Assembly (NCBI GenBank): GCA_902793285.1
Contig: CADBCV010000013.1
Span: 1-64,000, forward strand
Source: Oscillospiraceae bacterium
GTDB taxonomy: Bacteria > Bacillota > Clostridia > Oscillospirales > Oscillospiraceae
Reading direction: 5' to 3'
DNA: 64,000 bases
The notes under the pieces were generated by a model. The model had not been told where the DNA came from, made no database searches, and saw nothing but the letters and a program-made list of their open reading frames with translations. Numbering within the stretch: position 1 is the stretch's first letter; every line of letters starts with the position of its first letter. Positions 25,248 through 52,576 of the stretch are shown here, one piece after another. The position numbers were made by a program, and so were the translations under genes.

Positions 25248-25312
25248 TGGCGACCGAGAAGGGACTTGAACCCTCGACCTCCGGCGTGACAGGCCGGCGT
25301 TCTAACCCAGAC
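25248..25312 (-). pseudogene. 5'-truncated tRNA-Asp relic (anticodon GTC)
   Basis: The 3' part of a tRNA-Asp is perfect: end of D loop (GGTTAGAAC), anticodon arm GCCGGCC-TGTCACG-type with GTC, T arm GAGGG-TTCAAGT-CCCTT, acceptor strand CTCGGTCG and CCA. The 5' acceptor strand and D-stem strand (about 16 nt) are missing and replaced by unrelated sequence (GGGTCCC). It cannot fold into a tRNA. Such 3' fragments are left at the far end of elements that integrate into tRNA genes, or arise by deletion. Confidence 0.7.
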
Positions 25313-25445
25313 GGGACCCGATTTGTCAAGCGCCTTTTTCAAAAAATTCCCCATCTTTTCTTGGCGCGGCAGGGACAGCCTCGGGCGGCGGGCCTGGCGG
25401 CGGAAAAAATGCAGCGCTTTTTCGCCCAAAGTCGGGGGCTTTTGC

Positions 25446-41982: not shown

Positions 41983-43149
41983 TCAGCCCATGATCTTCTT
42001 GAGATCGGCGAGGCGCTCGAGGGCGGCGTTGAGGGTCTCGTCCTTCTTGGCAAAGTGGAGGCGGATGATGTGGTTCACGTTCTCCCGGAAGAAGGAGCTG
42101 CCCGGGACGCCCGCGACGCCGACCTTCGCGGCCATCTCCTCGCAGAATTCCACGTCGCTCTGCCCCTTTTTGAGATAGGGGGAGATGTCGGTGAGGAGAA
42201 AGTATGTCCCCTCGGGATCGGTGAAGGGAATGCCGAGATCGCGGAGCCCTCCCGTGAAGAGGGCCTTCATGTGGGCGTAGTGGGCGGTAAAGTCGGTATA
42301 ATAGCTGTCGGGCATCTCAAGGCCCACGATGGCGGCCTCCATGAGGGGTGCGGGCGCGCCGACGGCGTTGAAGTCGTGAAACTGCTTGATCTTGTCCATG
42401 AGGTGCTTCGGCGCGATGGCGTAGCCGAGACGCCAGCCCGTGATGGAATAGGTCTTGGAGAGAGAGTTGCAGGTGACGGTGCGCTCCCACATGCCGGGGA
42501 GATTGGCGAGGTAGGTGTGGACGTGCCCCTCGTAGATGATATGCTCATACACCTCGTCCGTGACGGCGTAGACGTCGTACTTGATGCAGAGGGCGGCGAT
42601 GAGCTCCAGCTCCTCCTTCGTGAAGACGCGGCCGCTGGGGTTTGAGGGGTTGCAGAGGATGATGGCCTTGATGCCCTTTTTGAACACATCCTCGAGGACG
42701 TTGGGGTCAAAGCGGAAGGAGGGCGGGACGAGGGGGATGAAGACCGGCTCGCAGTCGGCGAAGAGGGTCTGGGCGGCGTAGTTTTCAAAATACGGGGAGA
42801 ACATGGCGATCTTGTCCCCGGGATTCGTGAGGGCGAAAAGCGTGTCCACCATGGCCTCGGTCGAGCCGATGGTCACGACGATCTCGGTCTCGGGGTCGAT
42901 GTCGCGGCCCATGAAGCGCCTGGTCTTCGCGGCGACGGCGCGGCGGAAGTTCGGCGCGCCCATCGTGATGGGGTACTGGTGAGGGCCGACGGCGGCGACC
43001 TCGGCAAGCCTGTCGGTCATGGCCTTGGGCGGGTCAAAGTCCGGGAAGCCCTGGGCGAGGTTGATGGCGTTATTCGCGATGGCGATGCGCGTCATGCGGC
43101 GGATGACGGAGTCTGTGAACTGGCTGCACTTTTGATTCATGGGTTTCAT
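41983..43149 (-). CDS. PLP-dependent class I aminotransferase, last gene of aromatic operon
   Basis: A 388-residue fold-type I aminotransferase. NAINLAQGFPDFDPPKAM, ILCNPSNPSGRVFTKEEL, VTDEVYEHIIYEG, and the lysine motif CNSLSKTYSITGWRLGY with HLRLHFA-type ending. Start ATG 43149 overlaps the aroQ stop (ATGA). In this operon it most likely converts phenylpyruvate and hydroxyphenylpyruvate to phenylalanine and tyrosine with glutamate, completing the pathway. The family also includes kynurenine/methionine aminotransferases, so substrate is inferred from context. Confidence 0.88.
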   Translation of the reverse strand: MKPMNQKCSQFTDSVIRRMTRIAIANNAINLAQGFPDFDPPKAMTDRLAEVAAVGPHQYPITMGAPNFRRAVAAKTRRFMGRDIDPETEIVVTIGSTEAMVDTLFALTNPGDKIAMFSPYFENYAAQTLFADCEPVFIPLVPPSFRFDPNVLEDVFKKGIKAIILCNPSNPSGRVFTKEELELIAALCIKYDVYAVTDEVYEHIIYEGHVHTYLANLPGMWERTVTCNSLSKTYSITGWRLGYAIAPKHLMDKIKQFHDFNAVGAPAPLMEAAIVGLEMPDSYYTDFTAHYAHMKALFTGGLRDLGIPFTDPEGTYFLLTDISPYLKKGQSDVEFCEEMAAKVGVAGVPGSSFFRENVNHIIRLHFAKKDETLNAALERLADLKKIMG

Positions 43150-43592
43150 GTGTTTTCTCTCCCCTCCAGATAGTTTTTGAGAAACAGGATGGCCTGCCGG
43201 TAGCCCTCGAAGCCGAGGCCGATATAGCTTTTTACGCACGCGAGGCCCGCGTAGGAGATCTGCCGGAAGCTCTCGCGCTTTGTGACGTCGGAAAGGTGCA
43301 CCTCCACGGCGGGGATACTGACGGCCTTGAGCGCGTCGAGGATGGCGACGCTCGTGTGCGTGTAGGCCGCGGGGTTTATCACAATGCCGTCAATGCGGCC
43401 GTACGCGCCCTGGATCGTGTCCACGATGGCCCCCTCGTGATTGGACTGGAAAAGCTCCGCCTCGATGCCCTGCGCTTCACAGGTCTCGCGGATGAAGTTT
43501 TCCAGCGCCGCAAAGTCCTGCCTGCCGTAGATGTCCGGCTCCCGCAGGCCGAGCATGTTGAGATTCGGCCCGTTGATGATGAGCAGCTTCAT
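43146..43592 (-). CDS. aroQ: 3-dehydroquinate dehydratase, type II
   Basis: A 148-residue enzyme that makes 3-dehydroshikimate. Signature LLIINGPNLNMLGLREPDIY with catalytic Tyr, QSNHEGAIVDTIQ, IVINPAAYTHTSVAILDAL (His) and EVHLSDVTKRESFR. Normal length. Start ATG overlaps the aroE-aroK stop (ATGA). Confidence 0.95.
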   Translation of the reverse strand: MKLLIINGPNLNMLGLREPDIYGRQDFAALENFIRETCEAQGIEAELFQSNHEGAIVDTIQGAYGRIDGIVINPAAYTHTSVAILDALKAVSIPAVEVHLSDVTKRESFRQISYAGLACVKSYIGLGFEGYRQAILFLKNYLEGRENT

Positions 43593-44809
43593 CCCAGCGC
43601 CTCCAGAACGGCGCGCGCGGTCTCCTCCGGCGTGCCGGTATTTTCGACGGTGAAGTCGGCAAACTGCGCGTACAGCGGGGCGCGGCGGGCGTACATGGCG
43701 CCGAGGTCCGCGTTTTCCGACAGGGGCCTCCCCTTTCGCGCAAGCTCCCCGACCGGCCGCGTGAGCCAGACGAGACGCCCGTTCTGGTGCAGGAGCGGGT
43801 AGTTTTCCGCCCGGGTGACGCAGCCGCCGCCCGTGGCGATAACCGTGTGGGACTCTTTGCCGAGCGCCGCGAGGACGGCCGTCTCCCGCCGGCGAAAGCC
43901 CGCCTCCCCCTCCAGCTCGAAGATGCGGGGGATGGACATGCCGGCCTCGCGCTCGATCTCTCTGTCCGCCTCGGCACAGGGGCGGCCCAGCCGCTGCGCG
44001 AGGAGCGCTCCCACGGTGGACTTGCCGCAGCCCGGCATCCCGATGAGGATGATGTTCTGCATGGAGGCGTCGAGAAGGGCTGTGATACGGGCGATCTCGG
44101 AATCGGGGAGGGCGCGGCCCTGGAAGATTTCGCTTGCGCGCTTGGCCTGGGCCACCAGCATCGTAAGACCCCCGGCGCAGGGGATGCCGCGCGCCTCCGC
44201 CTGCAGAAGGAGGGCGGTGCGCTTCGGGTTATACACCACATCCAAGACAGCCTCGAGCCCCGGGAAGCTGCAGAGCTCCACCGGGCTCACGCCGTTTTTG
44301 GGGTACATGCCGAGGGGCGTGGTGTTCACAAGGATTTTCGCGTCCGCGTGGCGGTCGAGGTTCTGGTAGTTATTCTCACCATTCCGGGAGATGGGCACCA
44401 CCTCGGCCCCGTGCGCTCTCAGCACCGCGCAGACCGTGACGGATGCCCCGCCGGTGCCGAGGACGAGGGCCTTATTCCCCGCGATGCTGCCGGGGAGCGT
44501 TTGACGCAGCAGCGTCTCGAAGCCGAAGGCGTCGGTATTGTCGCCGAAGATCGTGCCGTCCTCGCGCCGCAGGAGAGTGTTGACGCTGCCGATGGTCCTT
44601 GCCGTGTCGGAGAGCGCATCGCAGAGGGGGATGACGGTCTTTTTATACGGGATCGTGACGTTGAGGCCGTGCCAGGCGCCCTCCCGGATGAAAGCCTCCA
44701 GCTCCGCCGGCGCTTTTTCATAGAGGGCGTAGTCATAGTCCGCAAGTTCCCGGTGGATGCGGGGGGAGTAGCTGTGGCCGAGCTTTTCGCCGAGCAGTCC
44801 GCATTGCAT
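43589..44809 (-). CDS. aroE-aroK: Shikimate dehydrogenase - shikimate kinase fusion
   Basis: A 406-residue bifunctional protein. Residues 1-245 are shikimate dehydrogenase: GLLGEKLGHSYSPRIHRELA, NVTIPYKKTVIPLCD (catalytic Lys), LGTGGASVTVCAVLRAHG (NADPH loop), NTTPLGMYP. Residues about 250-406 are shikimate kinase: ILIGMPGCGKSTVGALLAQ (P-loop), EADREIEREAGMSIPRIFEL, IATGGGCVTRAENYPLL. It performs two consecutive steps either side of shikimate. The fusion is not the usual arrangement. One nt separates it from pheA. Confidence 0.93.
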   Translation of the reverse strand: MQCGLLGEKLGHSYSPRIHRELADYDYALYEKAPAELEAFIREGAWHGLNVTIPYKKTVIPLCDALSDTARTIGSVNTLLRREDGTIFGDNTDAFGFETLLRQTLPGSIAGNKALVLGTGGASVTVCAVLRAHGAEVVPISRNGENNYQNLDRHADAKILVNTTPLGMYPKNGVSPVELCSFPGLEAVLDVVYNPKRTALLLQAEARGIPCAGGLTMLVAQAKRASEIFQGRALPDSEIARITALLDASMQNIILIGMPGCGKSTVGALLAQRLGRPCAEADREIEREAGMSIPRIFELEGEAGFRRRETAVLAALGKESHTVIATGGGCVTRAENYPLLHQNGRLVWLTRPVGELARKGRPLSENADLGAMYARRAPLYAQFADFTVENTGTPEETARAVLEALG

Positions 44810-44810
44810 G

Positions 44811-45953
44811 TCAGATCACCTCGCTGTAGCTGCCGAGATACTCGTACTCGTCCGTGAGCTCGCCGAGCTCGCCCATGAGCTGGATGAAGCGCGGGGAGTA
44901 GACCGAGGTCTCGAAGTCAAAGTAGAACATGAACTCGAAGCTCCGCTCCGGCATGGGGCGGCTTTCGAGCTTTGTGACATTGATGCCGAGGGCGTTGAAG
45001 CGGGAGAGGAGCTTATAGAGAGAGCCCGGCTCGTGCGGCAGGACCATCATGACGCTGGTCCGGTCCGCGCCGGGGTAGATTTCAAGATTGCGGGAAATGC
45101 AGATGAAGCGGGTGTAGTTGTTGCCGGAGTCCTGCACGTCGCTCTTTAAGATATCGAGCCCGTAGAGTCTCGAGCAGGCGCGGGAGGAGAGGGCCGCGAT
45201 CCCGGGCTCTGTGGACTCCGCCGCCATTTTCGCGGCGAGGGCGGTGTTCTCGCAGGGGATGACCTTCACCTTCGGCAGGGTCTGCAGAAAGGCCGCGCAC
45301 TGGGCGATGGCCTGGGGGTGGGAGTAGATCTCGCGGATGTCCTCGAGCTTCGTGCCCGGGCGGACGAGGAGGTTGTGGTCCACCTTTACCCGCACGGAGC
45401 GCACGATGCGAAAATCGTGCTTTCGCATGAGGTCGTAGACTGCGTTCACCGTGCCGGCGGTGCTGTTTTCCACCGGGATGACCCCATAGCGGCAGAGGCC
45501 CTTTTCGATGGCTGCGAAGACCGCGTCAAAGCTCGAGAAATAAAAGGTGCTGGGGCGCTTGAAGAGCTTTTCGCAGGCGATGCCGGAGTAGGCCCCCTCC
45601 ACCCCCTGGCAGGCCACCGTGGCCGTCTCGGGAAAGAGCTGGGGCGTTTCCCGCAGGGCCTTTTCGATGGCGCGGGTCTCGGCGCTCTCGGGGCGGAGGA
45701 TGCGCGTCTGATAGCTGCGGGAGAGCTCCATGATGAGGGAGAAGAGGGAGAAAGCGTACTCGCGCATCTCCTCCGGGCACTGGGCCTCCAGGGTGCGGAG
45801 CTTCTCCTTTTCCCGGCGCAGGTCCAGAACGCGCATCCCGTTATCCCGCTTCCAGAGGGCGATGTCGCCCGCGATGTCCATGCGGCGGTTGAAGAGCCCT
45901 AAAAGCTCGGCATCCAGCTCGTCAAGCTGCCTGCGGTAGTCCTGTAATTCCAT
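44811..45953 (-). CDS. pheA: Chorismate mutase / prephenate dehydratase
   Basis: A 380-residue P-protein for phenylalanine. Residues 1-85 are an AroQ-type chorismate mutase (ELDAELLGLFNRRMDIAGDI). Then prephenate dehydratase: CQGVEGAYSGIACEKLF, YGVIPVENSTAGTVNAVYDL, and a C-terminal ACT domain with the phenylalanine-binding type ESRPMPERSFEFMFYFDFE (about 300-375), which gives feedback control. ATG 45953 lies 13 nt after aroC. Confidence 0.94.
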   Translation of the reverse strand: MELQDYRRQLDELDAELLGLFNRRMDIAGDIALWKRDNGMRVLDLRREKEKLRTLEAQCPEEMREYAFSLFSLIMELSRSYQTRILRPESAETRAIEKALRETPQLFPETATVACQGVEGAYSGIACEKLFKRPSTFYFSSFDAVFAAIEKGLCRYGVIPVENSTAGTVNAVYDLMRKHDFRIVRSVRVKVDHNLLVRPGTKLEDIREIYSHPQAIAQCAAFLQTLPKVKVIPCENTALAAKMAAESTEPGIAALSSRACSRLYGLDILKSDVQDSGNNYTRFICISRNLEIYPGADRTSVMMVLPHEPGSLYKLLSRFNALGINVTKLESRPMPERSFEFMFYFDFETSVYSPRFIQLMGELGELTDEYEYLGSYSEVI

Positions 45954-45966
45954 GTGGGTCCCTCCC

Positions 45967-47019
45967 TCAAATGATCATATCATAGACCGCGACGGCGGCC
46001 GCGGCCTCGAGGACCGGGACGGCGCGCGGAACGATGCAGGGGTCGTGCCGCCCCTCGACCGTGAGCGTCTCAGGCGAGAGCGTTTTGAGATTCACGCTCT
46101 GCTGCGCCCGCGCAATCGACGGGGTGGGCTTGATCGCGGCTCTGAACACCAGGGGCATCCCGTTTGAAATGCCGCCGAGGATGCCGCCCGCGTGGTTCGT
46201 GACGGTTTCGACGCGCCCGGCGTTTACACAGAAGGCATCGTTATGCTCACTGCCGCGCATCCGGGCGGCCCGGAAGCCCGCGCCGAACTCCACGCCCTTC
46301 ACGGCGGGGACGGCGAAGACGAGGCGGGCGATCTGGTTCTCAAGCCCGTCAAACATCGGCTCCCCCACGCCGGGAGGCAGGCCGCGCACCACGCACTCGA
46401 TGATGCCGCCGACGGAGTCCCCCTCCGCCCGGGCGCTCTGAATGGCAAGGCGCATTTGCTCCCCCGCGGCGTCGTCCACGACGGGGAAGGACTTTTCCGC
46501 GACGGAGCTTTCAAACGCGCCCTCGTCCCGGATGCCCGCGAGCTCCCAAATCCGGGCATCGACCGTGATGCCCCGTACCGCGAGCGCCTGCCTGAGGATG
46601 CCCCCCGCGACGCAGAGGGGCGCCGTGAGCCTGCCGGAGAAGTGGCCCCCGCCGCTGAAGTCCTGAAAGCCGCCGAACTTCACCTCCGCGGTGTAGTCGG
46701 CATGGCCCGGGCGGGGCGTGATTTTGAGCTTGGAATAATCCCGCGGTCTTGTGTTGGTGTTTCGGATTACGGCGGTCAGCGGCGCGCCGCAGGTACAGCC
46801 GTCCTTGAGCCCTGCGAGAAATTCCGGGCGGTCTGCCTCCCTGCGGGGGGTGGACCAATCGTTCTGTCCGGGGGCGCGGCGGTTTAAGAAGGCTTGCAGC
46901 GCCTCCGTGTCCACGGGCAGCCCCGCGGGCAGGCCGTCGAGCGTCATGCCGATGGCCTCCGAATGGCTCTGCCCGAAAATGCTCAGGCGCAGGCGCCGGC
47001 CGATAAAGGTACTGCTCAT
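45967..47019 (-). CDS. aroC: Chorismate synthase
   Basis: A 350-residue FMN-dependent enzyme converting EPSP to chorismate. FGQSHSEAIGMTLDGLPAG, ITPRPGHADYTAEVKFGG, FSGGGHFSGRLTAPL, GDSVGGIIECVVRGLPPGVG, TNHAGGILGGISNGMPLVF, RHDPCIVPRAVPVLEAA are the family signatures. Start ATG 47019 overlaps the aroA stop (ATGA); a GTG three codons earlier is less likely. Confidence 0.95.
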   Translation of the reverse strand: MSSTFIGRRLRLSIFGQSHSEAIGMTLDGLPAGLPVDTEALQAFLNRRAPGQNDWSTPRREADRPEFLAGLKDGCTCGAPLTAVIRNTNTRPRDYSKLKITPRPGHADYTAEVKFGGFQDFSGGGHFSGRLTAPLCVAGGILRQALAVRGITVDARIWELAGIRDEGAFESSVAEKSFPVVDDAAGEQMRLAIQSARAEGDSVGGIIECVVRGLPPGVGEPMFDGLENQIARLVFAVPAVKGVEFGAGFRAARMRGSEHNDAFCVNAGRVETVTNHAGGILGGISNGMPLVFRAAIKPTPSIARAQQSVNLKTLSPETLTVEGRHDPCIVPRAVPVLEAAAAVAVYDMII

Positions 47020-48278
47020 CTCGCGCACCTCCAGAAGTCCTCCCAGAAAGCGGGATAGGATTTTCGCACGCAGTCTGCGCCGCTGATCGTTACGCTCTCA
47101 CGGCAGAGGCCGGCGGCAACGGCGGCGCTCATGGCGATGCGGTGGTCGCGGCAGGAATCAACGTCACCGCCGCGAAGTCCGCCCGTGCCGTGGATGACGA
47201 GGCCGTCGGGCAGCTCCTCCGCCGCCCCGCCGAGGTCGCGTATCAGCTTTGCCGTCGTTTGCAGGCGGTCGGACTCCTTCATGCGAAGCCGCGCCGCGTT
47301 TACGATGCGCGTGTCGCCCTCCGCCCCGCAGGCGAGCACCGACAGAACCGGAACCAGATCGGGGATCGGGGCGGCGTCAATGGTGAGAGGCCGCAGCTTT
47401 GCGCGCCGTACTGTCACCTCGCCCTCGGAGGCTTCGAGCGAAGCGCCGAACTGTCTTAAGATTTCCAGAACGGCCATGTCCCCCTGGGCAGAGCGGAGAT
47501 TCAGCCCGCGCACGGTGACGCCCTTTTCGCTCAGCGCGCCCATACAGAGGAAGAAGGCGGCGTTTGACCAGTCCCCTTCCGCGCGCAGGACGCCGGGAAG
47601 CGCAAAACCTTGGAGGCCGGGGATGCGCCAGCTCTGTCCCGCCCGCTCGATCCGGACGCCGGAGCGCGTGAGCGCGTCCTCCGTCAGGCGGAGATAGCCC
47701 GCGGATTCAAGCGTCCCCTCCGCCGTGACCGAGCTCGCGCCCGAAAGCCGCGGCAGGGCCATCAGGAGGCCCGAGAAATACTGGCTTGACACGTCCCCCG
47801 CGAGGCTGTAGGCCCCGCTCTGGAGCTGTCCGCCGAAACGCAGCCAGCTCCCGTCCCGGGAAATCTCCATCCCGTGGGCGCGCAGGACGTCTTCATAGAT
47901 CTGCATGGGCCGCTCGGGCAGGCGGCCCTCCATTTTGAAACAGCCTGAGACGCCGAGCGCCCCGGCCACGGGGAGCAGAAAGCGGAGCGTTGAGCCGCTC
48001 TCCCCGCAGGGGAGCAGGCCGCCGCTGACCGGCTTTTGAATGGGCGTGACACGGATGCGGCGTCCCTTCGTTTCGATCCCCGCGCCAAGCGCTTTGAGGC
48101 ACTTCGCCGTGGCGAGGATGTCCTTGGAAAAGCCGTCGATCAGAAGGGTTGTTTTCTCCGTCCCCAGCGCGGCGCAGATCAGCAGGCGGTGGGCAACAGA
48201 TTTGGAGGAGGGAATACAGACTTTGCCCGCGCAGGGCCCCGGTGTCAGCCCGACAGAAAAACCGCGTTCCTTCTTCAT
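47016..48278 (-). CDS. aroA: EPSP synthase (3-phosphoshikimate 1-carboxyvinyltransferase)
   Basis: A 420-residue enzyme joining PEP and shikimate-3-phosphate. Motifs: PSSKSVAHRLLICAALG, LPCGESGSTLRFLLPVAGAL, PERPMQIYEDVLRAHG, GDVSSQYFSGLLMALP, RMKESDRLQTTAKLIRDLGG, SCRDHRIAMSAAVAAGL. The LxCGESGST stretch differs from the common LGNAGT form, as in many Firmicutes/class II-like enzymes. ATG 48278 overlaps aroB (ATGA). Confidence 0.95.
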   Translation of the reverse strand: MKKERGFSVGLTPGPCAGKVCIPSSKSVAHRLLICAALGTEKTTLLIDGFSKDILATAKCLKALGAGIETKGRRIRVTPIQKPVSGGLLPCGESGSTLRFLLPVAGALGVSGCFKMEGRLPERPMQIYEDVLRAHGMEISRDGSWLRFGGQLQSGAYSLAGDVSSQYFSGLLMALPRLSGASSVTAEGTLESAGYLRLTEDALTRSGVRIERAGQSWRIPGLQGFALPGVLRAEGDWSNAAFFLCMGALSEKGVTVRGLNLRSAQGDMAVLEILRQFGASLEASEGEVTVRRAKLRPLTIDAAPIPDLVPVLSVLACGAEGDTRIVNAARLRMKESDRLQTTAKLIRDLGGAAEELPDGLVIHGTGGLRGGDVDSCRDHRIAMSAAVAAGLCRESVTISGADCVRKSYPAFWEDFWRCAR

Positions 48279-49327
48279 CTCAGCCCCGCCTCCAGCCAGG
48301 TGTACGCCTCCTCCGCCGTCACGGGGAGGATCTCGCACCGGCCGACGGCGCGCGGCACGATGAGGTGCAGCCTGCCGCCGGAAAATTTCTTGTCCAAAAG
48401 TAAGGTATCATAGAGCTCCGCCGCGCTGTACTTTGTCTCGGTTGGAAGATCATATGCGCGCAGGAGGGCGATCACGGCGTCGCGGTCAGCGGGGGCGAGC
48501 AGGCCCTTTTTGCAGGCCGCGCGGCATATCATCGCCGTGCCGACCGAGACGGCCTCCCCGTGCAGGAGAGTGTAGGCGCTGCGGCTCTCCACCGCATGGC
48601 CAAAGGTATGGCCGAGATTCAAAAGTCTGCGCGCCCCGGTATCCCGCTCATCCTCCGCGACGATGGCAGCCTTGTGCCTTACGCAGGTTTCGATGACCTC
48701 CGCTGGCTCGATGCTCTTATCCCCGAGGGCCTTGAAGAGCGCGGGGTCGCCGAGGACGGCGTATTTGATGACCTCCGCGTACCCCGCCGCAAGCTCCCGC
48801 GCCGGCAGGGTTTGGAGAGTGTCGGTATCGCACAGGACCAGGGCGGGCTGATAGAACGCGCCCACCTGGTTTTTCCCCTGGGGCAGGTCGATGGCGGTCT
48901 TCCCGCCGACGGAGGAGTCCACCGCCGCGAGGAGCGTGGTGGGAACCTGGACGAAAGCGATGCCCCGCTGGTAGGTCGCGGCGGCAAAGCCGGCGAGATC
49001 GCCGGTCACCCCGCCGCCGAGGGCGACAAGGCAGTCCGTGCGGGTAAAGCGCCGCTCGGCGAGAAATTCCAAAAGCTCCCCATAGTGCCGCAGGCACTTG
49101 GTCCCCTCCCCCGCCGGGAGGACGAGGGAGCAGGTCTCAAGCCCCGCACCCTGAAGGCTCTCCAAAGCCGCCGCGCCGTAGAGGGGGAAGACGTTCTCCC
49201 CGGCGATGACGGCGCACTTTCGGGCCTTTGTCCTCTCGCGCACGCCCGCGCCCAGGGTTTGAAGGAGCCCCTGGCCGATCCGCACCGCGTAGTGCCCCGA
49301 GGGGGCGTTGACCGTGACGCTTCTCAT
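48275..49327 (-). CDS. aroB: 3-dehydroquinate synthase
   Basis: A 350-residue NAD-dependent enzyme of the second shikimate step. LVALGGGVTGDLAGFAAATY, VQVPTTLLAAVDSSVGGKTA, LPQGKNQVGAFYQPALVLCD, AEVIKYAVLGD and LNLGHTFGHAVES (metal-binding histidines) are all present. ATG 49327 overlaps the tyrA stop (ATGA); upstream in-frame codons lie inside tyrA and are not used. Confidence 0.95.
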   Translation of the reverse strand: MRSVTVNAPSGHYAVRIGQGLLQTLGAGVRERTKARKCAVIAGENVFPLYGAAALESLQGAGLETCSLVLPAGEGTKCLRHYGELLEFLAERRFTRTDCLVALGGGVTGDLAGFAAATYQRGIAFVQVPTTLLAAVDSSVGGKTAIDLPQGKNQVGAFYQPALVLCDTDTLQTLPARELAAGYAEVIKYAVLGDPALFKALGDKSIEPAEVIETCVRHKAAIVAEDERDTGARRLLNLGHTFGHAVESRSAYTLLHGEAVSVGTAMICRAACKKGLLAPADRDAVIALLRAYDLPTETKYSAAELYDTLLLDKKFSGGRLHLIVPRAVGRCEILPVTAEEAYTWLEAGLR

Positions 49328-50160
49328 TTCCCGTCGATCTCCTCTTTGAGGCGCTTCCCCTCGGCAAGCAGGGCCGTGAGGGTTTCCCCGTCCTCCGCCG
49401 CCATGGCGTCGCGGTAGGATTTCAGGTTTTCGATGAGGCAGTCCACCTCGCGGATGAGGTATTCGCGGTTTTCCAGAAAGAGCTCCGACCACATGGGGGC
49501 GTTGAGCCAGGCCACGCGGGTGAGATCCTTGTAGCTGCCGGCGGAGAAGCCGTGGTGGAGCTTTGCCGTGGGGCTTTTCACATAGGCGTTGGACACCACA
49601 TGCGCAAGCTGGGAGGTGAAGGCGATCATCTCGTCGTGGGCCTCGGCCGTCGTGACCGAGAAACGCCCGAAGCCAGCCGGGGCGAGGAGGGTCTTGACTC
49701 TCTCGAGGAGGAAGATATCGTCAAACTGCGGCGGCACGATGACCATGGGCTGGCGGGCGTACATGGTGGCCTTCGCATATTTGTAGCCGGAATACTGGGT
49801 GCCCGCCATGGGGTGGCCGCCCACAAAGGTGAAGCCGTGCTCCGCCGCGATGGGAAAGCACGCCTCGCAGACCGTGCGCTTCGTGCCGCAGCAGTCCATG
49901 ACGAGGGGCTTTTTGCCGATGTAGGGGGCGAAGTCCCGCAGGGTCTCGATGGCGGCCTCCGGGAAGATGGTGAGGAGGACAAGGTCGCAGTCGGAGATGT
50001 TCTCCTTCGTGAGCTCCCCGTCCGCATCGCCGCTCAGGAGGGCGAAGTCCAGGGTGCTCCGGCTGCGGTTGTGGGCGAGGACCGTCCAGCCCGCCGCGTG
50101 GTAGGCCTTCACGAAGCTGCCGCCGATGAGGCCGAGCCCAAATACGCCGACGGTGCTCAT
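49324..50160 (-). CDS. tyrA: Prephenate dehydrogenase
   Basis: A 278-residue NAD-dependent enzyme leading to 4-hydroxyphenylpyruvate for tyrosine. N-terminal Rossmann fold [20 protein letters not shown], then [15 protein letters not shown] and [17 protein letters not shown] with the catalytic histidine region. It has no C-terminal ACT domain, so feedback by tyrosine is not obvious at protein level; control may be by the attenuator. Overlaps aroF stop (ATGA). Confidence 0.93.
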
Positions 50161-51158
50161 CGGATCGCCTCCCGCACGGCGCGGACCTTTTCGGCAAGGG
50201 CCGCAAACTCCTCGGGTCGGAGGCTCTGCGCCCCGTCGCAGAGGGCGTGGATGGGGTCGTTGTGCACCTCGATGATGAGCCCGTCCGCCCCTGCCGCGGT
50301 CGCGGCGAGGGCCATGGGCGGCACCAGGCGCGCGATGCCGGTGGCATGGCTCGGATCCACGATGATGGGCAGGTGCGTAAGCTCCCGCAGCATCGGCACC
50401 GCGGAGAGATCGAGGGTGTTGCGGGTGTAGTCCGAGAAGGTGCGGATGCCCCGCTCGCAGAGCATGACGCGCTCGTTCCCGCTCGCCATGATGTACTCCG
50501 CGCTCATGAGAAGCTCCTTGAGGGTGTTGGCAAGGCCGCGCTTGAGGAGGATCGGCTTATCCACACTGCCGAGCTCGCGCAGAAGGTCGAAGTTCTGCAT
50601 GTTGCGCGCGCCGATCTGGATAACGTCCACATCCTCAAAGAGCGGCAGGTCGTTGATGTTCATGAGCTCCGTCACGATGGGGAGCCCCGTCTCGGCCCGG
50701 GCGATCTTGAGAAGCTCCAGCCCCTCGGCCTTGAGGCCCGCGAAATCATAGGGGGAGGTGCGGGGCTTGAACGCGCCGCCGCGCATGAGCGTCGCGCCCG
50801 CGGCCTTCACGGCCTTCGCCACCGTGACGATCTGCTCCTCCGACTCGACCGAGCAGGGGCCCGCGATCATGACGAAATTGCCCGCGCCGACCTTCACGTC
50901 ACCCACCTCCACCACGAGAGACTCCGGGTGGAACTTCCGGTTGCACATCTTGAAGGGCTCCGACACGCGCTTGACGCTGTCCACGATGTCAAGGCTCTCC
51001 ACAAGGTCGATGTCCACGCGGGAGGTGTCCCCCACGAGGCCGAGGACGGTCTGAAATTCCCCGTCCGAGATGTGGATGCGAAGGCCCAGACCCTGGAGCC
51101 ACGCGATGAGCTGCGCCCGCTTTTCCTCCGGAACGCCGTGCTTTAATACAACGATCAT
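50157..51158 (-). CDS. aroF: DAHP synthase, type I beta with N-terminal regulatory domain
   Basis: A 333-residue enzyme that starts the pathway from PEP and erythrose-4-phosphate. Residues 1-70 form a ferredoxin-like regulatory domain ([20 protein letters not shown]), as in Thermotoga-type enzymes where it gives Tyr/Phe inhibition. The barrel follows: [90 protein letters not shown] 51158 follows AGGAGG. First structural gene of the aromatic operon. Confidence 0.95.
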
Positions 51159-51237: not shown

Positions 51238-51269
51238 AAAAAACAAACCGCACAGGATAACCTGTGCGG
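51238..51269 (-). terminator. Attenuator terminator of the aromatic operon
   Basis: On the minus strand CCGCACAGG-TTAT-CCTGTGCGG (51269-51248), a 9-bp perfect stem, followed by TTTGTTTTTT. It lies within the transcribed leader, about 80 nt before aroF, so it must be bypassed for operon expression. Confidence 0.85.
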
Positions 51270-51346
51270 CAAAAAGCTGATTGCGTCCCTCTTTTTTGCG
51301 CCACAAATTATCCTTACCTGGCAAGGCCGGTAAAGAGGTAATAATA
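51254..51346 (-). promoter_or_regulatory. Attenuator arms 1, 2 and 3
   Basis: Arm 2 (51295-51314, minus-strand AGGATAATTTGTGGCGCAAA) pairs with arm 3 (51254-51273, which contains the 5' half of the terminator) over 13 plus 5 bp with two mismatches, forming an antiterminator. Arm 1 (51337-51346) overlaps the TAT-TAT-TAC codons of the leader peptide and can pair with GGTAAGGATAAT at the start of arm 2. A ribosome stalled at the Tyr codons would block 1:2, allow 2:3 and prevent the terminator. Confidence 0.7.
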
Positions 51347-51370
51347 GGCGTAAAACAGAGAAGTGTTCAT
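51314..51370 (-). CDS. Tyr/Phe-rich leader peptide of the aromatic operon
   Basis: An 18-residue peptide, MNTSLFYAYYYLFTGLAR, starting at ATG 51370 with GGGAG nine nt upstream and ending at TAA 51314-51316. Four Tyr and two Phe codons lie within eight positions (FYAYYYLF), a density only expected of an attenuator control peptide. Stop codon is followed at once by the antiterminator arm. Translation speed here would report the supply of charged tRNA-Tyr (and tRNA-Phe). Confidence 0.8.
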   Translation of the reverse strand: MNTSLFYAYYYLFTGLAR

Positions 51371-51403
51371 GAAAAAATCTCCCGATCTTTCATTCTTTAC
51401 TGT

Positions 51404-51432
51404 ATTGTAGCGCAATTTCATTATACTGTCAA
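51404..51432 (-). promoter_or_regulatory. Promoter of the aromatic operon
   Basis: Minus strand: TTGACA (51432-51427), exactly 17 nt, TACAAT (51409-51404). Transcription would begin near 51,397, giving a leader of about 240 nt before aroF. Confidence 0.8.
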
Positions 51433-51616: not shown

Positions 51617-52576
51617 ATGAAGAGAAAGCTGCTGCTTCCGATGCTTCTGATATTCGCCCTGCTGCTGACAGGCTGCGCCGCGCTCTCCCCCGCGAAGGAA
51701 AGCGCCCTGCCCAGCGCCGCGCCGACGGCGATCCCCGCCCCGACGCCGACGCCGACGCCCACCGTGAAGCCCGTCTCGCCCGAGGTGCAGGCCCTCCAGC
51801 CCCGCAACCAGGAGGTCTGGCGCGAGATGCACCGGCGCGAGGGGATGGACGGCCGCCTGATGATCCCGTCGGCGGGCATCAACGTCGCCCTCTTCACGTG
51901 GATCAACGCCTCCGTCTCCGCCGCCGATCCCGAGGAGATCGTGGCCCAGGTGCGCCAGCTCATCGTGGACTATGAGGACAGCGCCGTTTTGTATAACGAC
52001 GGCTACGGCAGCGTCATCGCGGACCACTCCAACCAGGACTTCTCGACGCTCTCGAACGTCGCGGTGGGCGATCCGGCCTACATCCTCGCGGGCGACCATG
52101 TGGTGAGTCTCCGCTGCAGGCTCGTGACGGACGGCGTCAACACCGGCACCGGCATCACCGACAAGGACGGCAACAACATCACCGCGGGCTCCGACTACAC
52201 CTGCTACACCTGTCTGGAGGACTGGACCCACATTCTCGTGGTGGGGTTTGAGGTCACCGACCGGGACTTCTTCGACGTGGACCGCTTCGATATCGGCGCG
52301 GCGGAGACCCCGAACGGCGCCGCCGTTTCGACCGTGAGCGCAAGCCCCGCCCCCGCCGAGCTGCCGGGCGCCACCACGCCGCCGACGCCGACGCCTATCT
52401 ACACGCCGGTCGGCTCCCCGACGCCGAGCCCCTCCCCCACGCCCGAGCGCGAGGAACGGGAGACGCCGCAGGGCGGCTATGACGACTACTACGACATTCT
52501 CGGCGGCTACGACATCTACGCCGACCCCAGCGGCTCCGCCGGCTCCGGCAGCATCGACGGGGGGTATTTGGCTTAA
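51617..52576 (+). CDS. Sortase-like-domain lipoprotein
   Basis: A 319-residue lipoprotein: signal peptide and lipobox LLTGC (Cys 20), Pro/Thr linker (PTAIPAPTPTPTPTVKP), then a domain at about 80-225 that reads like a sortase barrel: RLMIPSAGINVALFTW, VIADHSNQDFSTLSNVAVGD (His position), YTCYTCLEDWTHILVV (Cys position). The C-terminal 90 residues are a Pro/Thr/Ser linker and a Tyr/Asp/Gly tail. Sortases normally join proteins to the wall and are anchored by a helix; a lipoprotein form with a long tail is unusual, and the catalytic arginine is not evident, so activity is uncertain. Confidence 0.65.
   Translation: MKRKLLLPMLLIFALLLTGCAALSPAKESALPSAAPTAIPAPTPTPTPTVKPVSPEVQALQPRNQEVWREMHRREGMDGRLMIPSAGINVALFTWINASVSAADPEEIVAQVRQLIVDYEDSAVLYNDGYGSVIADHSNQDFSTLSNVAVGDPAYILAGDHVVSLRCRLVTDGVNTGTGITDKDGNNITAGSDYTCYTCLEDWTHILVVGFEVTDRDFFDVDRFDIGAAETPNGAAVSTVSASPAPAELPGATTPPTPTPIYTPVGSPTPSPSPTPEREERETPQGGYDDYYDILGGYDIYADPSGSAGSGSIDGGYLA

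Follow-up and report, generated by a model that had tools for sequence, protein, structure and literature searches.

A probable tyrosine/phenylalanine leader-peptide attenuator upstream of the aroF genes in Clostridia

We describe a leader switch in front of aroF that is, with high probability, a classical ribosome-mediated transcription attenuator sensing charged tRNA-Tyr and tRNA-Phe. The switch and the nine ORFs that follow it are all on the minus strand of the window, that is, the whole stretch of 64,000 nt analysed here. The leader contains the features of a leader-peptide attenuator: a short ORF with a ribosome site, codons for amino acids made by the downstream genes, a terminator, a covarying antiterminator that excludes the terminator, and an arm 1 that competes for arm 2. 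These parts were observed, as were their conservation and covariation in related leaders and the folds preferred when ribosome positions were simulated. The features are as follows (all on the minus strand).

51404..51432, minus: promoter, with the −35 element TTGACA at 51432-51427, 17 nt, and the −10 element TACAAT at 51409-51404; 11 of 12 consensus matches
51379..51383, minus: Shine-Dalgarno-like GGGAG, 8 nt 5' of the leader ATG
51314..51370, minus: leader peptide ORF, MNTSLFYAYYYLFTGLAR followed by stop; 18 codons plus TAA, with Phe or Tyr at five of codons 6-11
51347..51362, minus: arm 1, leader codons 3-8; pairs with 51302-51287 in the predicted 1:2 fold (MFE)
51292..51314, minus: arm 2, AGGATAATTTGTG-GC-GCAAAAAA; begins on the third base of the leader stop codon
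51254..51275, minus: arm 3 in the antiterminator, TTTTTGC-CG-CACAGGTTATCCT; comprises the terminator 5' arm, the loop and the first bases of the 3' arm
51238..51270, minus: intrinsic terminator, stem GCCGCACAGG/CCTGTGCGGT at 51270-51247, loop TTAT, T-rich tail to 51238
50157..51158, minus: aroF, DAHP synthase of the B. subtilis type (TIGR01361); NF006421 478 bits (cut-off 335), TIGR01361 387 bits (cut-off 268)
49324..50160, minus: tyrA, prephenate dehydrogenase; match below model cut-offs
48275..49339, minus: aroB, 3-dehydroquinate synthase; TIGR01357 345.7 bits (cut-off 305)
47016..48278, minus: aroA, EPSP synthase; TIGR01356 above cut-off
45967..47028, minus: aroC, chorismate synthase; NF003793 and TIGR00033 above cut-off
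44811..45953, minus: pheA, chorismate mutase/prephenate dehydratase; NF008865 223.6 bits (cut-off 219), chorismate mutase matches below cut-off
43589..44809, minus: aroE-aroK fusion, shikimate dehydrogenase and shikimate kinase; both halves match, below cut-offs
43146..43592, minus: aroQ, type II 3-dehydroquinate dehydratase; TIGR01088 above cut-off
41983..43149, minus: aminotransferase, last in the presumed operon; NF006488 378.9 bits, below the cut-off of 498

The original prediction, made from this DNA alone, had proposed an attenuator controlling a nine-gene aromatic operon. Nine ORFs in line indeed match the series from aroF to the aminotransferase, three of them below model cut-offs, and their close spacing suggests that they form one transcript. 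The presumed operon thus comprises most of the shikimate pathway together with tyrA and pheA. The predicted promoter, TTGACA and TACAAT separated by 17 nt, was also found. In a scan of 471 bases, six promoter-like sites were detected versus a mean of 1.0 in shuffled sequences, and the other five had 9 of 12 consensus matches each. An exact pattern search of the source genome identified the element at the aroF locus only, a kind of search that a diverged copy would escape. Two other features of the window should be mentioned. The divergent gene (51617-52576, plus strand) encodes a Thr/Pro-rich putative lipoprotein with no Pfam match at E ≤ 10^-5, and a second tRNA-like Rfam match (25251-25323, minus strand; 32.7 bits), located 37 nt from tRNA-Thr and uncalled by ARAGORN, is perhaps a degenerate tRNA.

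The leader was predicted to encode 18 codons with FYAYYYLF, and this is what we found at 51370-51314; its stop codon is directly followed by GGATAATTTGTGGCGCAAAAAA. For the RNA structures, the predicted elements were present with somewhat different dimensions. The antiterminator had been given as 13+5 bp: the 13-bp helix (AGGAUAAUUUGUG/CACAGGUUAUCCU) stood, and after a 2x2 mismatch the second helix (GCAAAAA/UUUUUGC) has 7 bp instead of 5, with a total of −25.4 kcal/mol. Similarly, the terminator and T run before aroF were as expected, and the stem has 10 pairs (including one G-U) rather than 9, followed by TTGTTTTTTA; the hairpin has −18.9 kcal/mol. The statement that arm 1 lies on the Tyr codons was only partly exact: the arm spans codons 3-8 (T S L F Y A), among which Phe and Tyr each occur once, and the inner pairs fall on codons 10-15. 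The leader fold was better than all of 200 dinucleotide shuffles (z = −3.99).

On the basis of these elements, transcription would start from the TTGACA/TACAAT promoter and a ribosome would begin the 18-codon leader. When charged tRNA-Tyr (and tRNA-Phe) is scarce, the ribosome would pause at the FYAYYYLF codons and cover arm 1, so that arm 2 would be free to pair with the emerging arm 3 (13+7 bp), the terminator would be blocked and RNA polymerase would proceed into aroF and the remaining eight genes. When charged tRNAs are plentiful, the ribosome would reach the stop codon and, since this codon is the 5' edge of arm 2, mask arm 2, leaving arms 3 and 4 to form the terminator. If the ribosome is absent, 1:2 pairing is expected, with the same outcome, termination. 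We infer that the leader is translated and that stalling leads to read-through, with Tyr presumably the first and Phe the second signal.

To follow the leader in other organisms, we examined 450 nt 5' of aroF at 159 loci (153 distinct sequences). They came from two overlapping sources, both weighted to close relatives: the best 80 among the matches listed in a scan of named genomes, and the same genus, in which aroF was matched in 81 of 101 genomes and upstream sequences were obtained from 79 of these 81. A short ATG ORF with at least five Phe/Tyr residues per 10 codons was present in 123 of the 153 distinct upstream sequences. Controls gave far smaller numbers: 3/153 in the reverse complements, a mean of 3.35 (maximum 9) of 153 in dinucleotide shuffles, 9/723 upstream of other long ORFs in the same loci and 7/480 in random 450-nt segments of these loci, which possibly included aroF upstream sequences; separate draws of such segments gave 10/480 and 8/480 at thresholds of at least six and at least seven Phe/Tyr residues, respectively. 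When Trp was counted as well, an aromatic ORF was found in 125 of 153 upstream sequences, all with a terminator-like hairpin; a few of these hairpins fell inside the ORF, and stricter terminator placement gave 124. The other 28 contained no ORF of at least five aromatic residues (Trp counted) per 10 codons. Among these, one gene was cut by a contig end (L144) and three had an extrapolated start from a partial gene match (L157, L163 and L167). Others are apparently real absences, mostly in more distant members.

For detailed comparison we used a near set of 60 leaders whose aroF was at least 74% identical, from which two (L017 and L019) were dropped for their different ending and absence of the TTTG motif, leaving 58. 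A Shine-Dalgarno-like motif preceded the leader ATG in 54 of these 58. Three successive columns contained Tyr in 54, 47 and 40 leaders, followed by Phe in 56 and Thr in 55; the tail was variable except for a common final Arg (43/52). On average, the leaders had 18.5 residues with 3.7 Tyr and 3.2 Phe, and only two Trp codons occurred in all 58. In 49 of 58 the stop codon was located 9 nt 5' of the arm-2 TTTG, and TTTG and a GC were invariant in arm 2. The two dropped leaders belong with L173 and L174 to a related group whose peptides end in RWRKF, possibly a variant attenuator; L017 and L019 have no usual arm 2.

Alignment of orthologous leaders was the check put forward with the original prediction, and both the 2:3 and the 3:4 pairings covary in the 58 leaders. 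In the antiterminator, 91.1% of cells were paired (35-54% in slid alignments) and changes on both sides were observed at 8 of 17 pairs. Both-side-change cells numbered 33 versus 10.8 in shuffles, the covariation score was matched by none of 500 shuffles, and the number of further pair types was matched by 3 of 500. Examples of arm 2 and arm 3 changing together include GGATAA/TTATCC, GGGTAA/TTACGCC, GGCTGA/TTAGGCC, GGTTAA/TTAACC, GGTCAA/TTGATCC, GAGTAA/TTACTC and AAGTGA/TTACT; in some leaders, one arm of the 2:3 pair had changed with its partner unchanged. The terminator was 95.6% paired, with both-side changes at 6 of 10 pairs and a covariation score reached in 0 of 500 shuffles.

Complementarity of arms 2 and 3 in relatives was also supported by arm swaps between species, in which own arms outpaired swapped arms overall in the near as well as in a distant set. 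In the 58 near leaders the mean was −21.8 for own versus −18.9 for swapped arms (0/5000 permutations), although the own pair was weaker than the mean of the swapped pairs in 9 of the 34 leaders whose arm-2 hexamer has changed. In 64 distant leaders, with arms chosen free of alignment, the values were −19.1 and −14.3 (0/5000), and 59 of 64 were better than their row mean. It should be noted that the covariation shuffles keep no sequence relatedness, and that neither they nor the arm permutations take shared ancestry out of these figures. Columns 10:76 contained A-U in 25, G-C in 14, G-U in 4, U-A in 3, C-G in 2 and other combinations in 7 leaders; because of these five pair types, shared ancestry is unlikely to be the sole cause of the covariation. 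The competing 1:2 fold was more stable than the average synonymous recoding in all but two of the 58 leaders (56/58; Wilcoxon p = 4 × 10^-11).

We also simulated ribosome positions by placing a footprint that reaches 14 nt past the first base of the A-site codon on each of the 58 leaders. With arm 4 not yet made, the antiterminator was favoured at 215 of 217 Tyr and 183 of 184 Phe positions (398/401), and a ribosome at the stop codon left it in 5 of 58 leaders; with an 11-nt footprint the latter number was 38 of 58. At the same stage, free RNA favoured the antiterminator in 21 of 58 leaders, and non-aromatic codon positions did so in 545 of 614. In the whole leader, the terminator formed from free RNA in 56 of 58, the antiterminator formed with a stop-codon ribosome in none, and antitermination at equilibrium was obtained at 80 of 217 Tyr, 34 of 184 Phe and 46 of 614 other positions. 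Because equilibrium folds antiterminate at few Tyr/Phe positions, the attenuation model needs co-transcriptional kinetics, and because almost any stalled position frees arm 2, specificity would lie in the codons present and not in geometry. Therefore, the sensed amino acid would be set by codon content and the switch by the order of synthesis. The simulation is crude; provided that the RNA folds co-transcriptionally, its results would fit the logic of classical attenuation.

The ease with which simulated stalls free arm 2, at 545 of 614 non-aromatic positions, is what might be expected if translation of the leader were a general translation sensor or coupled to aroF with no amino-acid specificity. 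However, aromatic codons are far above chance across families, and the source leader ends 155 nt 5' of aroF with the terminator in between, and we regard such a role as extremely improbable. A short conserved peptide with a Phe-Thr pair past the Tyr run (Phe in 56 and Thr in 55 of 58 leaders) could instead point to a nascent-peptide arrest switch, in which ribosome stalling is caused by the peptide when it binds a small molecule; TnaC and ErmC are switches of this kind. Against this, the conserved residues are the amino acids made by the operon, the number and order of aromatic residues vary (YYY, YFYF, FFYYF), and three of four tail residues vary. The Phe-Thr codons of the source leader also sit in the 1:2 fold, which may account for their constancy. 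Arrest of this type therefore seems very unlikely, if a little less so than a general sensor.

A T-box, in which uncharged tRNA-Tyr or tRNA-Phe would bind the leader RNA and stabilise the antiterminator, deserves mention because the source genome has eight matches to the T-box model, three above cut-off, one of the eight being 5' of pheS/pheT (84.2 bits, cut-off 93), and in other genomes a T-box was found 5' of aroF itself in 3 of 57 loci scanned (L248, L297 and L298; 0/17 in one subset). At the source aroF locus, however, RF00230 was silent at the gathering score as well as at E ≤ 10, and what is conserved there is an ORF containing Tyr/Phe codons, with the arms behind it. We thus rejected a T-box at this locus, and its probability appears close to nil. 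Compared with all of Rfam at gathering scores, the leader matched no family; none of the seven matches at E ≤ 10 came near its cut-off (16.8 versus 99 bits in one case; lowest E 0.67), and they were discarded as chance. Sensing of Trp was rejected for the genus in view of the two Trp codons in 58 leaders and the near absence of trpE, although Trp codons do occur in a few distant leaders. The ribosome-mediated Tyr/Phe attenuator remains by far the best explanation of the locus.

The distribution of aromatic leaders was then extended to the class and the phylum. In a class sample, aroF was found in 216 of 291 genomes; 89 upstream sequences were taken, mostly from the best-scoring matches and hence skewed to near relatives; after removal of two short sequences, 87 remained. 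At least six aromatic residues (Trp counted) per 10 codons were present in 58 of 87 and at least five in 64 of 87, compared with 1.1% and 5.6% of base shuffles and 5/723 and 15/723 upstream sequences of other genes, respectively. In a phylum sample, aroF was matched in 216 of 249 genomes, the matched ones lying nearly all outside the class, and 68 non-class upstream sequences from the best matches contained such ORFs in 18 (at least six) and 23 (at least five) cases, with base shuffles at 0.3% and 2.5%. A clear leader outside the class is, for example, MTTEYFYYFFSSNFFGWAFCVGSE. In four loci labelled Thermoguttaceae, Lentisphaerae or Kiritimatiellae (L023, L036, L052 and L077), aroF is Clostridia-like and preceded by an aromatic leader, which probably reflects incorrect labels or misbinning of the contigs. 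Downstream of the gene, in the best 80 aroF loci among the matches listed (up to 6 kb past aroF, often cut by contig ends), matches on the aroF strand were found for tyrA in 78, aroA in 68, aroB in 65, aroC in 63, pheA in 55, the aroE-aroK fusion in 52, aroQ in 9 and the aminotransferase in none.

In the source genome, the genes after seven of the eight T-box matches matched valS, a 2-isopropylmalate synthase-like gene, a MetN-like transporter gene, pheS with pheT, an acyl-CoA synthetase-like gene, alaS and a TrpX-like gene, several of them below cut-offs. The last of these (L008, G000:C22:12872-13125) is a TrpX-like tryptophan ABC transporter component (201 bits, cut-off 390) behind a T-box of 69.5 bits, under cut-off. 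The source genome also contains hisG. For trpE, the model had one weak match (37 bits) in the 101 genomes of the genus and none in 34 good genomes; in control genomes it matched in 14 of 14, above cut-off in five. The idea that the whole genus is without Trp genes was rejected, as trpD was above cut-off in 11 of 101 genomes. At both trpD loci inspected (2/2), a T-box precedes trpD. One of them (L262, G072:C12, 3117-7518, minus strand) contains trpD, C, F, B and A after the T-box, with ORFs assigned by eye and trpE and trpG absent from its 9.3 kb; the other is L263 (G053:C12). A trp operon with no trpE suggests dependence on outside anthranilate.

Judging from sequence, Phe and Tyr supply would be governed by the leader peptide, and Trp matters, where seen, by T-boxes; the near absence of Trp codons in the leaders fits the latter. 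T-box and leader at aroF appear to be an exchange of sensors at the same gene. Taken together, the balance tips slightly towards the Tyr/Phe attenuator being the usual and old control of shikimate entry in related gut Clostridia and neighbouring classes, alternating with T-boxes at aroF, in which case the genus would combine the Tyr/Phe leader with Trp under T-boxes and no trpE. Within a single cell, T-boxes thus apparently serve several tRNA ligase genes, pheST included, and a stalling leader serves the aromatic pathway. Moreover, a family of well over a hundred natural variants with covarying arms bears on the evolution of both the amino acid sensed and the type of sensor, and aromatic leaders form a class of short ORFs that annotation likely misses or labels hypothetical.

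For Gram-positive amino-acid operons, the usual textbook mechanisms are T-boxes or TRAP. A TRAP-regulated leader carries repeated (G/U)AG triplets to which TRAP binds, and no such series stands out by eye in the source leader. Aromatic regulation in low-GC Gram-positives was reportedly treated by Panina in 2003, and Neshat et al. are said to have described in 2014 the AroR leader and aroF attenuator of Corynebacterium glutamicum. The original prediction had regarded a Tyr/Phe attenuator of this kind in Clostridia as no textbook case. In the open-access literature searched, no Tyr/Phe leader described in Clostridia was found; the claim of novelty was narrowed because of precedents in C. glutamicum (a described Phe/Tyr aroF leader), Acholeplasma (a candidate) and Eubacteriales (predicted his attenuators). 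For Gram-positives, earlier papers report a predicted his leader in bacilli (PMC2965389) and a predicted Leu leader in Staphylococcus aureus (PMC5794164), and classical his attenuators have been predicted in a total of 17 genomes, among them five Eubacteriales species as well as Erysipelotrichales and members of the Bacillus cereus group (PMC9413887); another paper states that no aminoacyl-tRNA-synthetase gene was then known to be under classical attenuation in Firmicutes (PMC1262725). The present leader resembles the predicted his attenuators in having a classical leader peptide in place of T-boxes, although those sense histidine.

The principle itself is classical. E. coli attenuators have a layout of arms 1-4, and the his leader likewise. 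Among them, the pheL/pheA and trpL leaders are leader-peptide attenuators with codons for the product (PMC11802643); our leader shares with them the product codons, arms 1-4 and a terminator before the operon, and those of E. coli control other genes. The uORFC-13-1 motif is a uORF predicted exclusively 5' of aroF, with a promoter, an RBS and Phe codon(s) shortly before a terminator; its 24 representatives come only from Acholeplasma and environmental sequences and have at least one Phe codon, and its authors call the mechanism possible (PMC8632094). By this description, it is similar to our leader in uORF, promoter, RBS, Phe codons and terminator 5' of aroF. In C. glutamicum, an AroR leader with Phe-Tyr-Phe is reported to precede the aroF operon as an attenuator (PMC11802643). 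Going by the described features, both are Phe/Tyr leader peptides 5' of aroF; unlike that of this actinobacterium, the leader in Clostridia has a Tyr-dominated core and a presumed operon with most of the shikimate pathway, tyrA and pheA. What appears to be new is thus the probable Tyr/Phe aroF attenuator in Clostridia, with an unusually wide and well-supported distribution.
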